64,000 nucleotides of DNA from NCBI GenBank assembly GCA_030272585.1, contig BSYQ01000011.1, forward strand, positions 620,001 through 684,000, written 5' to 3'. This document shows positions 58,467 to 64,000 of the stretch, piece after piece. Within the stretch, counting starts at the first letter, position 1, and each line of letters begins with the position of its first letter. The notes beneath the pieces were generated by a model. It did no database searches. It was not told where the DNA came from and worked only from the letters and a program-made list of their open reading frames with translations. The position numbers and the translations under genes were made by a program. The DNA comes from Bryopsis sp. KO-2023. Its lineage: Eukaryota; Chlorophyta; Ulvophyceae; Bryopsidales; Bryopsidaceae.

Positions 58467-59932
58467 TCATTCACACTCAGAATTTTCAATCTCAACATCA
58501 AGAACTTCCTTCAATCGAGTGCTCAACTGTTGCAGCTCGCTCAACCCCATCCTCCCTTCCCTCCACATCCCCTTATCGTACCATTCCCGTCGAAAACCCA
58601 CTTCATTTCTCGAACCATGGTTGAAAGGACCTTTCAGCAACTCTGGGCTTATGTGCTCCAACCAGCCTTTGTATACCTCGTCTGGCTGCAAATCAAGCAT
58701 GTGGCTGACACGTAGAAACCATGATACCCCCACCCCCACATGAGCCTTTTCTTCCTGGGCAATCCTACCAACAATGCCAGCAGAGCGTGCGTCCCCACCC
58801 CCTTGAAGTCTTTGGCATAGTCTAGGCCCCGCATCCAAACCTCTAGCTTCTTGCGACATTGGAACCAATGCCAATCTGCAATTTTAAAATTGAAAAAAAG
58901 GCTCAATCCATGCAACGAACAAGTTCCAGAAAATGAATGCAGTCGGGGAACCACCTCACCTTGAGCTCAAATCGCATGTCGACTGAGTAGCTGATGCCCA
59001 CAGCATATCATGGGCAGCCATGTCTCCGTATGCATGGCCAAGCTCAGACAATCGCTGCACACACCATCCAAAATGCCGGCTCTCATCGTCAGCAACATGA
59101 GCAAAATCTGTGTAGAAGGAATCTTCCAATCCAAGGTGGGAGAATCGAACTAGGGTGTCCCATGCAAGATCGATCGCATTCAACTCAATGTGTGCCAGGT
59201 TGTGCAGCATGTAGACCGATTTGGGCAAGGGGGAGTCCGCAATTTTAGGAACCTTCGGCATGGGTACTAGCTCTGGTTTGGGGGGGCGGGCGGGACGTGG
59301 CGGTGCTCCTGCTGTGCCGATGGAGACCAATCGTCCCTGTCTGAAGCAACATGCATCAGTTCCGTGTGGGTTGCTTGAGGAATCCTCATTGAGGGACACT
59401 GATTGAAGGGATGATGGGCCCTTTGTTTCAAGATGGGCATTTTTGTCTACCTCACAGCAGTCCAAGCCATGTGTGAGATAGCTGCCTTCCGCATGGGATC
59501 GCCTGTGTTGAGCACCAGAGCCCCACACTCCGCCAGACTTCCAGGCAAGCTTTGCAAATCTGGTAGAAATTCCTCAGAGCAAGGTGGGGGTGGAATGTTG
59601 TCAGATGGACCGGTGTTACCCCATCCTCGCTTCTCGTCAATCGGAGCTTGCCTCCAGTGATTCAAATCGGGCCATTCTCCTGCGAAAGGGGATTCTGGAA
59701 CTATCTTCAATGCTGTGCCACAGGAGGGGGGCTCGCCCAGCGAGACCGCGAAAAGACGCTCCCCGCGTAAAATCTGTCTCTGCGGCGCCCACTGGATGTG
59801 AATGGGCGGGCGGAAGGGAACACGACAACAAAACATTCGGAGCCCCGATTTGCTGAAGTTCCAGGTTGCCCAGATTCTTGGGTGCTGCATGGCTGACAGA
59901 ATGCCAGAATTTCGATTTGCTCGGATCATCAA
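58467..59932 (-). CDS. DUF455 ferritin-like protein
   Basis: Exons: 59932 (or the Met at about 59890) to about 59457, about 59340-58967, and 58874-58467 (frame after an acceptor near 58880). The N-terminus (MQHPRIWATWNFSKSGLRMF) is basic and amphipathic, which suits organelle import. The fold motifs are SLAECGALVLNTGDPMRKAA, LHNLAHIELNAIDLAWDTLV, DDESRHFGWCVQRLSELGHA, YGDMAAHDMLW, ALVPMSQEARGLDAGPRLCQ and AQEEKAHVGVGVSWF. The AHIEL, DESRH and EEKAH clusters supply the Glu and His ligands of a ferritin-like di-metal four-helix bundle. This pattern is specific for the DUF455 family (COG2833), whose substrate is unknown. The splice at the GCTCAAG donor restores Arg-Leu exactly. Confidence 0.85.
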
Positions 59933-60576
59933 GTCCCTAGCTCACCTGAGCTTCTCCAAGGGAAAGAGAGGAGCTACCTCCCTCTCTTCTCTCTGCCTTG
60001 GCGGCACGCCAGCCGAAAGGACGATCCATTTCCACGCACCCGTTTTGCTGAAATTTGACTTGAAATCAAATGGAACATCAAGCTTTGTTTTGTTTGCAGC
60101 GAGCGTTAAGCTTGATCTTGTTGCTTCTGTCTGCGTCCATTCGTGTTTTGTTTTCTGGTCGTTCTTATTGAAGGAGGAGGAAAAGGATGAACGACATCGA
60201 CGAGAAAGAAGGGGCGTAACCGCGACGCGCAGAAAACTAAGGAAAAGGGTGCCGTCAAATGGTTCCATTTGAGCCCCTGGGCGAGCACAACACAAGTCTA
60301 GACAGATCTGTTGCCACTTACCTCGTGGGTTTTGTAAAACTGGTCCAGAATCGTTTTACAAATACGTACTGTCCTTTTGATGTTCTTTCAGCGTCGTTCG
60401 TCGTTCGCCGTTGCGAATCTAGGGAAAACCCAGATGTGCACGCTCCAACGCGCGCAGATCTGGGGTATTTGCCATAAAGCCCCATTGTCGCCAACTTCAA
60501 AGTAACCCAACTTTGCTCTCTTTTCTCCTTTCAACATCGTGTTTCTTCGTCCTCTTCCGCTTGAACGTTTTGAAAC
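59933..60576. other. Divergent intergenic region, DUF455 / Lhcb
   Basis: It contains the promoter of the light-harvesting gene. The minus-strand frame 59942-60295 has no domain. No element is identified. Confidence 0.35.
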
Positions 60577-61406
60577 ATGGCTTCCGCAGCTATTGCCCAG
60601 ACTCTCGTTGCAGCACATGCTACCTCCAGGGTGAGTCCAAAAAATGGAAGTGCACTTCGCTTCCACGGAATGCCTGTGCCTTTCCTGATCAATCGTGCGT
60701 ACATGCGTTTGTGCAGGGTGCCAAGCAAGTGACACGCGCCGCCGTTGAGTTCTACGGTCCCGATCGCGCTCTGTGGTTGGGTCCCTACTCCGAAGGCGCC
60801 GTCCCAAGCTACCTCACAGGAGAGTTCCCCGGGGACTACGGCTGGGATTCCGCCGGTCTGTCCGCCGATCCGGAAACCTTCGCCGCCAATCGTGAGCTGG
60901 AGCTGATCCATGCTCGCTGGGCTATGTTGGGCGTCGTTGGTTGCTTGACCCCTGAGGCCCTTGAGAAGTACGGAGGCGTTGAGTTTGGCGAGGCCGTCTG
61001 GTTCAAGGCTGGCTCTCAGATTTTCGCGGAGGGTGGCCTCGACTACCTTGGAAACCCATCTTTGGTGCATGCCCAATCCATCCTGGCCATCTGTTGGACT
61101 CAGGTGGGAATCTTCTATGCTCTGTGTTCTAACTAACTCTCATGGTATCGGTTATAACCGACATTAATCAATGTTGCTTGCTCATGTTTTGAACACTTCG
61201 ACTTGCTGCAGGTTGTCCTCATGGGTTTGGCTGAGGGCTACAGGTGCTCGGGAGGTCCTTTGGGCGAAGCCACCGACCCACTCTACCCTGGAGAGGCTTT
61301 CGACCCAATGGGTATGGCCGACGACCCAGAGACCTTCGCCGAACTTAAAACCCCAGCATATCTATCGCCTCCTTCCTGGGGCTGGAGCTTCTGGCCAGGT
61401 GGATGA
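60577..61406 (+). CDS. LHCB: Chlorophyll a/b-binding protein (Lhcb), 5' part, interrupted in last exon
   Basis: This is the major light-harvesting antenna protein of photosystem II in green algae and plants. Exons: 60577-60630 ([18 protein letters not shown], plastid targeting), 60717-61103 and 61212-61406. Family motifs are perfect: [38 protein letters not shown], then helix [21 protein letters not shown], then [13 protein letters not shown], helix [22 protein letters not shown], and [20 protein letters not shown]. After AELKT (codon ACC ending at 61352) the family match stops abruptly. The frame reads [17 protein letters not shown] and ends at 61406. The expected [11 protein letters not shown] with helix III is absent downstream on plus, but lies on minus at 62172. 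As it stands, this strand encodes a protein lacking helix III. Confidence 0.93.
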
Positions 61407-62172
61407 ATGAAATCAAAAGGATGTTCTCCCCTGAATTTTGGAGTGATCTCCTGAATTGATCAAAGCCTCCTCTGGAGTTTCAGCTCCACCTGATTGTTTG
61501 GGTTCAACCGGTATCCCGACAGGAACTGACTGAGAATATCGAAAATCCTGCATGAAGGTTGTTATGATATCACCTCCAATTGAAATCCAATCTGGCTCCG
61601 CTCAAATGTAGCACGATCAGTTAACACTATCCAGCTTGAATTTTGTGATAACGAATGTAATCCACAAAATGCCACCATTAATTTCCCCCAGACTCAATAC
61701 AGCCCATGGGCAATGAAAAAACGGTCGGGCACGTTGAGGGAATAGACTTCTTTATCTATCTTCATCAGAAAGTTTGGAGTTCCCATTCACCCTCCTTATT
61801 GAGTTCTTTGCTGTAGATCAGACTCAAATTGAATGTGGAGGGAGTTGGCAACATAGACCAAAACTGCCATTGCACACTACATGTAGTGTTTGTATACAAA
61901 CATGCAAGTTACATGTCCCAACTGCTGCAAGTTCTCTTCTCATACGTCTTATGATCCTCTCATCAACAAAAAAGGTTGGGGCGCGATCAGACCACGGACG
62001 CTCAGAAAATCTGCGCACCGAAAAACTTGGTCGCGTACACAAAACCATTGTTGGCAACGGGATCGGCGATGTGCTCAGCCCAGCACTCTACCGGTCCCTT
62101 TCCGGTCTGAAGGGATTGAACAAAGAACCCAAACATAGCGAACATAGCCAATCGTCCATTCTTGATCTCCTT
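61353..62172. other. Putative 820-bp inverted segment inside the Lhcb gene
   Basis: The left border follows ACC of the Lhcb frame, and the right border precedes GGT, its reverse complement. Reversing this segment would place the minus-strand exon directly after the plus-strand frame with no base lost or gained in the coding sequence. The segment also contains what would be the 3' UTR. Confidence 0.7.
62002..62172 (-). CDS. LHCB: Lhcb C-terminal coding segment (helix III) on the opposite strand
   Basis: 171 nt encode 56 residues plus stop: [20 protein letters not shown] (helix III with the E, N and R ligand and ion-pair residues), [36 protein letters not shown]. This is the standard end of an Lhcb protein and starts with the residue that should follow AELKT on plus. 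The bases just upstream on minus read GLLT in frame rather than the conserved ELKx, and no upstream Lhcb exons are visible on minus to the window end. It is therefore not an obvious second complete gene. Confidence 0.9.
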
Positions 62173-63478
62173 GGTCAGCAAACCAGCTGCTGAGGGGTTT
62201 GTCGATCACTCAAGACAATTAATTCGCTGCTGTGCTGAGGAGAATTTGCCTGTCCCAATGTCTTACTGAGGGAGAGGGGTGGAGAGAGTTTTCCTCTCTA
62301 GAAACTGGAGCAAAACTCTATATAGGGATGTTGCTGCTTCTTCATCTGGAAATGTTGAGGAAGAATGAAATGATAGGAAATGGTGGTGACGAAGGGTGGA
62401 AATTGAAAAGAGGCCTGGGGCCCTACCCTGTTTTTTTAGAGTGTGTCTGGATCTGTTTCTCAAATCGAGGAAAGCAGCGGCTGCTCCTATGGGTCCAGGT
62501 CTCTTTATGCTGAAGGAAAAGCTGGGGGGATGTTGTTGAGACGAAAAACAAAAAAAATGAAGGAAAAAGTGAAGGAGCCCGCAGGCATGCTCAGAGAACA
62601 TTTTGACAAGTTTCCTCAGAAAACTTGTCAAAATGAGGAGGGATTGGTTAGGTTTGGTTTTTATATAGCCAGGATTTTGGGCTATGGTTAATCGGAGGCT
62701 TCTGAATTGTCTGATGGTGAGGACAGGGAAGGCCAGAATGACGATCAAGAAATACTGGATTAGATTTTTCACCTCTTTTTTTTTTGTTTTCGACATCGTT
62801 TGGGTAGTTTGATTTGAGTCTGTGTGGGATGATGAAACTGAACAAATGCATTTTGAGAGATTGCGACTTTGAGTTTCCTCGAAAAGGGGAAGAAATCAAG
62901 GGTGTCTCGGAAGATTTTTTTTTAGTTTCTCAGACTTAATGCCCAACTGTTTGTTTTCTTTTAATTCAATTGTTTAGGAAATAGTCTTCATGTGTGTGTA
63001 TGTGTGTGTCGGTGTGTGTGGTTTATTCAGTCCATGGGTATTAGGGTGCTTGATCAGCCTCCCAGTAAATTTGATGACTTCCTGCCTGTTGCTGATCAGC
63101 AAGCCGATTCAAATGGGTTTTACAGGGTCTTCATATCCAACCAAAACAATTGCACAATCTATCCTGCCATTTCTCAACCATGGCTGAAAGTAATCATGAG
63201 TGCAGGTTGCCTCTTTTTCCAATTGAGATGGTTGGCTCAAACTTGTGCTCCTCCACCTCCACTACCCGAATTTTCGCTCTGCAAGAAGAAACACATCATT
63301 CTGTTGCCAGAATCGTTCCCTCCTCCAGTCGGGCATAGCGGACAAAACTGCCAGACCGATGTTGACGGCACCCCCCTACTTAATACTTTTCCCGCCCTTT
63401 GTTCTTCTTCGCTTTCTTGCCTTTTTCGTGCGTTATCGACCTTTTGCGTGGAGCTTATCGTCGACGTGAGAGAAGAAG
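62173..63478. other. Intergenic with a strong hairpin
   Basis: No coding signal is convincing. It contains a perfect 15-bp inverted repeat at 62599-62635 and a TG-rich patch near 62990-63020. Confidence 0.4.
62599..62635. repeat. 15-bp perfect hairpin
   Basis: CATTTTGACAAGTTT at 62599-62613 is followed by a 7-nt loop (CCTCAGA) and the exact reverse complement at 62621-62635. It could be an RNA hairpin or the remains of a small inverted-repeat element. I saw no target-site duplication. Confidence 0.9.
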
Positions 63479-64000
63479 ATGGGCAGCAACGACAGGTAAA
63501 AACGACCCTGTGATTCCAGAAGACGCGAATATGTAAATCTTGTCAGGATGTGTAAAATCCCAACAGAATCCCAAATGTTTTCGAATATTGGAACTATTTT
63601 GCACAAGGCCAAAAAGACGAAGTGCAGTCCGATCACGAAAAGTGTTATAGACTGACTCAAGAGGTAAAGCACCTTTTTATCCTATTGTCTACAGTTAGCT
63701 CTCTACCCCAACAGTAGACTAAGAAGAAACTGGGAGGGGAGCTTTTAAGAAAAATGCTGACCAGAATTACATGGGTAATTCCAGAAGAAGAAGAAAAATC
63801 GCTTGTCCGAATCGGTTATCTAACGAAATACAGTATGCGAAAAAATCCCTTTTTGAAGAGCCTTGTTAGATGGTTAAGAAAAATTCCAGGGAGAATAAAG
63901 AATGTGCCAGACCCGAATGATCCAAAAAATGAAAATATGTATAAATATACATGTATATATAGGGGTTGGGATTTAGGGGAATTTTCAAGTTTAAAAACAA
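63479..64000 (+). CDS. 5' part of an unassigned gene running off the right edge
   Basis: An ATG at about 63479 gives MGSND, followed by a donor AG-GTAAAA at 63497. The next exon (about 63572-63663) reads IPNVFEYWNYFAQGQKDEVQ, then SDHEKCYRLTQE, before GTAAAG. A third stretch, open from about 63718 to the window end (94 codons), reads TKKKLGGELLRKMLTRITW, then VIPEEEEKSLVRIGYLTKY and later basic sequence. Frames and phases agree across the two introns if the acceptor TAG at 63717 is used. It is lysine-rich and AT-rich, and I recognise no family. The last exon could be chance, since its acceptor is weak. Confidence 0.45.

Follow-up and report, generated by a model that had tools for sequence, protein, structure and literature searches.

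A probable, very recent microinversion breaking one of many near-identical LHCII genes in Bryopsis sp. KO-2023

The window analyzed here is the whole 64,000-nucleotide stretch C11:620001–684000 of the assembly, which comprises 91,088,769 bases in 28 contigs. Positions are those of the window unless a contig is named. A gene of the Bry-Lhcb1 type lies on the plus strand, with three exons and with GT/AG splice sites in place. Open frames of the DUF455 family (PF04305) are found upstream of it on the minus strand (58467–59573), and the two form a head-to-head pair. The third Lhcb exon is in two pieces on opposite strands. Adjacent to these pieces are the two halves of what looks, from its sequence, like the last exon of another gene, which we named X. 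The features are as follows.

60577–60630, plus: Lhcb exon 1, with the ATG start and donor GTGAGT
60717–61103, plus: Lhcb exon 2 (GAKQVTR...ICWTQ), with acceptor TGCAG and donor GTGGGA
61212–61352, plus: retained 5' part of Lhcb exon 3 (VVLMG...AELKT), matching the family up to the T (ACC, 61350–61352)
61353–61406, plus: translated novel tail of 17 residues and stop (61404–61406), from inverted X sequence
61353–62172: inverted segment, in an order unlike that of the 28 Lhcb paralogues and five other X copies examined
61353–61525, minus: left half of the X last-exon fragment, inside the inverted segment (93, 92 and 83% identity to copies on C4)
61895–62001, minus: inverted Lhcb 3' UTR; homology with the paralogue L012 reaches 61895, and TGTAA lies 88 nt past the stop
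62002–62172, minus: inverted 3' part of Lhcb exon 3 (KEIKNGR...GAQIF and stop), 171 nt including the stop
62174–64000, plus: right half of X with the sequence that follows it, shared with C4 and running beyond the window

The plus-strand frame matches the Lhcb family as far as AELKT, and the minus piece 62172–62002 continues it exactly, with no bases lost or gained. Translation and family alignment thus confirm the arrangement given in a preliminary description of this DNA. The novel 17-residue tail predicted there is also found: the frame can be read to its stop at 61404–61406, and the 56 C-terminal residues are absent. The best match of the window Lhcb is PDB ID 8hlv_A (Bry-Lhcb1), a siphonaxanthin chlorophyll a/b binding LHCII protein. 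The two pieces, when joined, align with it without gaps over query 2–232 and differ from it at two positions in the printed alignment. The part corresponding to the last 56 of the 249 residues of 8hlv_A sits on the opposite strand in the window gene. The retained plus product matches PF00504 with 127.9 bits (cut-off 22.3) over profile positions 2–141 of 162. The end of the profile and the 56 C-terminal residues are encoded on the minus strand, and the locus encodes no complete three-helix LHCII protein on one strand. The missing C-terminal part presumably contains the third helix.

Thirty paralogue loci were collected, and 28 were kept for the tree and distances. L007 was dropped because its ungapped reading met 2 stops and 56 differences, and L008, with 163 differences, is a distant Lhc. 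The comparison covers exons 2 and 3 only (228 of 232 codons). The count of 28 is a lower bound, as further Lhc matches exist in the assembly beyond those modelled. The T|K junction is uninterrupted in all 28 paralogues modelled, and none of those kept has a stop within the 228 compared codons. The stop of each lies 60 or 61 codons from the GAA/GAG of AELKT, the start of the searched word. Differences from the window protein number 0–3 residues in 24 of the 28 and 11–14 in the other four. The nearest paralogue, L012 (C11:166234–169985), is homologous to the window from 60427 to 61352 on the plus strand and then, on the opposite strand, over 62176–61895, which indicates that the 3' UTR was turned together with the end of the exon. 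A second complete Lhcb gene on the minus strand, the alternative named at the outset, was rejected because no other Lhc match adjoins the minus piece on that strand at E ≤ 0.001.

To the right of 62174, the window matches three places on C4, near 4.617, 4.629, and 4.884 Mb. The stretch 61347–61525 matches sequence adjoining these same places, in a relative orientation opposite to that in the window. Two further, diverged copies of X are located on C4 near 5.000 Mb and on C3 near 2.078 Mb, with weaker right-half matches (best E 3e-10 and 2e-7). The uninverted order of the X halves is kept in all five other copies found (three near and two diverged). Together with the 28 Lhcb paralogues, these copies support the proposed inversion within the last Lhcb exon on both borders. 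The window lacks, at 62173, the bases that lie between the X halves in the near copies (69, 51, and 69 bp, or as many as 5 fewer when junction bases common to both are assigned to X). The description of the event as a precise 820-bp inversion is exact on the Lhcb side, but the X side lacks about 51–69 bp. In the aligned exon, the window X lacks one base relative to the three near copies and is thus out of frame; it was probably dead already. No Pfam family above cut-off was found for X (two matches fell below it).

The sequence from 62174 to 64000, together with its continuation in L059 to about 5360, forms a segment that may contain a gene for a membrane protein, Y. No Pfam match to the frame of Y was found at E ≤ 1. 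The segment is present, whole or in part, at the three C4 places with about 82–87% identity. A repeat array with a period of about 142 bp is observed downstream of the window (L059 6146–8713; C11:686146–688713), and related arrays adjoin the three near X copies on C4.

The junctions were compared with the near X copies, and chance was calculated as the frequency with which random breakpoints in the same sequences reach the given microhomology. The left junction shares 6 nt (AAAACC; chance 0.0017) with the 4.617-Mb copy, 5 nt (0.0052) with the 4.629-Mb copy, and 2 nt (0.16) with the 4.884-Mb copy. The right junction shares 2 nt with each of the three (0.16). Just past the left border, the window aligns most closely with the 4.617-Mb copy, which favors the 6 nt microhomology. 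The longer stretch on the right is closer to the 4.629-Mb copy than to the 4.617-Mb copy (85 vs 82%). The inverted microhomology of three bases (ACC/GGT) reported earlier is present today, but the uninverted X copies give 6, 5, or 2 nt on the left and 2 nt on the right. Short microhomology with bases lost at one border is compatible with a replication template switch or with two breaks healed by end-joining, and not with a conservative recombinase. A reversible switch was rejected on two grounds: among the 36 inverted-repeat pairs, the 25 longest include none with arms at both borders, and 51–69 bp are missing on one side. The earlier suggestion of a switchable inversion is thus not supported.

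The joined window protein is identical to 8 of the 28 paralogues over the 228 codons. The NG86 dN is 0 against five of these eight, with dS values of 0.44–0.72. Against the other three it is 0.0019–0.0038, which reflects path averaging and no amino-acid difference. L012 is nearest by dS (0.43), yet it differs by 3 residues; because eight copies match the window protein, the comparison suggests that these changes are L012's own. The smallest triplet estimate of the terminal dS of the window gene among the ten nearest paralogues is 0.238. If the full branch had been neutral, about 125 changes would be expected at 525 non-synonymous sites, but comparison with the identical paralogues shows none. 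The probability of no change is 0.023 with 3% of the branch neutral and 0.082 with 2%, and the 5% point is near 2.4%. Any neutral period would take up about 2.4% of the terminal branch at most. With a terminal dS of about 0.24, the absence of amino-acid changes leaves three readings of the gene: recent death, continued use, or a wrong assembly.

A wrong assembly would mean that the organism carries an intact gene and that a chimeric read or the assembler reversed the 820 bp. The perfect coding sequence is compatible with such an error, as is the presence of only the inverted orientation in the assembly. However, a simple flip would neither drop 51–69 bp of X nor leave 5–6 nt of microhomology against two of the three X copies, and the absence of repeat arms at the borders among the 25 longest pairs also argues against it. 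The uninverted junction consists of GAACTTAAAACC followed by AAGGAGATCAAG, and the inverted junction of GAACTTAAAACC followed by CCCAGCATATC. The uninverted junction word of the locus has no exact match in the assembly. With one mismatch it is found at four places where paralogues lie (three on C6 and one on C9), and the locus reads CTT where these four closest genomic matches read CTG. The stretch 61353–62001 as a whole occurs once in the assembly. The published account of the KO-2023 culture, which comprises the alga and its bacteria, gives PacBio CLR reads with an N50 of 33.7 kb, plus Illumina reads (PMC12509668). Reads of such length, far longer than 820 bp, would span the block, which speaks against an assembly mistake if the assembly is that of this culture. 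We consider an assembly error unlikely. Continued use of the split gene, for example by trans-splicing of plus and minus transcripts or by re-inversion, would also agree with the lack of amino-acid change against eight paralogues, and is very improbable. Rescue by an unusual transcript had been raised in the preliminary description. Rescue by cis-splicing is impossible, since the pieces lie on opposite strands, and there is no splice site at the border. An in-frame trans join does exist: the GT at 61399, the sole GT within 60 nt past the plus border, joins in frame to two AGs on the minus strand, after which the exon would start at 62189 or 62186 and the protein would gain 21 or 20 residues. 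This join is a weak rival, as it does not restore the T|K of the 28 paralogues and adds a stretch absent from them, and a frame fit in two of five AGs is near chance. Re-inversion has the absence of a repeat pair at the borders against it, again among the 25 longest of the 36 pairs.

The inversion may also be polymorphic, with both orientations among individuals, sexes, or nuclei and only one of them in the assembly. This is a special case of a recent inversion that we regard as possible but doubtful; the two readings overlap, and their likelihoods are not to be added. The extreme youth is what would be expected of a segregating variant. A male and a female individual of KO-2023 were collected (PMC12509668), which would allow for two orientations, but a second haplotype is absent from the assembly. 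A literature search on the ploidy of the strain found no paper. We give little weight to an inversion that still segregates, perhaps with intact copies in some nuclei of the giant multinucleate cell and inverted copies in others. In such a mosaic, nuclei with intact copies would hide the loss, and the locus could serve as a live marker of structural mutation in the coenocyte.

The likely explanation of the locus is a very recent gene-breaking microinversion in one of many near-identical LHCII genes of the Bry-Lhcb1 type. Among the options of the preliminary description, the fresh loss of an antenna gene, here a redundant one, has the best support, given the eight identical proteins among the 28 and the short neutral period. 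In the ancestral layout, the Lhcb gene, its 3' UTR, and the downstream X fragment would all have run in one direction. Two breaks may then have occurred, one at codon T|K in the last Lhcb exon and the other in X, with about 51–69 bp lost. Repair by end-joining or replication template switching would have flipped the intervening roughly 0.8 kb via short microhomology. The plus product would have lost its last 56 residues, together with the third membrane helix, and gained 17 unrelated residues instead. It would most likely be unstable, making the copy a pseudogene at birth, and the loss would be tolerated because many near-identical copies remain. The order, the borders, the missing X bases, and the unchanged protein relative to eight paralogues are observed, whereas the repair route, the youth, and the loss of function are inferred. 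Some observations weigh against parts of this reading. The unchanged protein is also expected from an assembly error or a still-used gene. Microhomology is at chance level (2 nt) on the left against one of the three X copies and at the right junction. The X bases may have been lost before the inversion, and the nearest paralogue differs by 3 residues.

Gene-disrupting microinversions that arise via microhomology-mediated end-joining or template switching are a known kind of event. They share with the locus a short inverted block, short junction microhomology (partly at chance level here), and bases lost at one border. What would set this case apart is its unusual youth, with both gene halves still encoding unchanged protein.

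TGTAA is a poly(A) signal of green algae. It is present within 400 nt past the stop in 27 of the 28 paralogues, compared with 14.1 expected from base shuffles, and the sole paralogue without it is the nearest, L012. At the locus, one TGTAA follows the inverted stop within the inverted UTR, and another is on the plus strand at 61656. The plus transcript is without its own 3' UTR. With the signal at 61656, it could end before the antisense exon piece is reached, whereas a read-through product would include 171 nt in antisense to the paralogues. Stable folding of a truncated protein without the third helix and the C-terminus is unlikely.

The locus would offer a snapshot of a gene dying by inversion before coding decay, with both borders readable from related copies. 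It would also illustrate one route by which members are lost from a large family of near-identical antenna genes. If the inversion is polymorphic, structural mutation could be followed within a multinucleate cell. The practical weight is modest, as this is one of at least 29 copies. A literature search for an inverted Lhcb gene found no paper. Six hand-picked weak Lhc matches (L065, L066, L067, L068, L069, and L070) served as a contrast: two have stops and frame changes, one has a frame change, and three are small pieces. Chosen in this way, they show that decayed pieces exist and not how frequent they are. These short or decayed Lhc pieces suggest that other copies have been lost in the genome.
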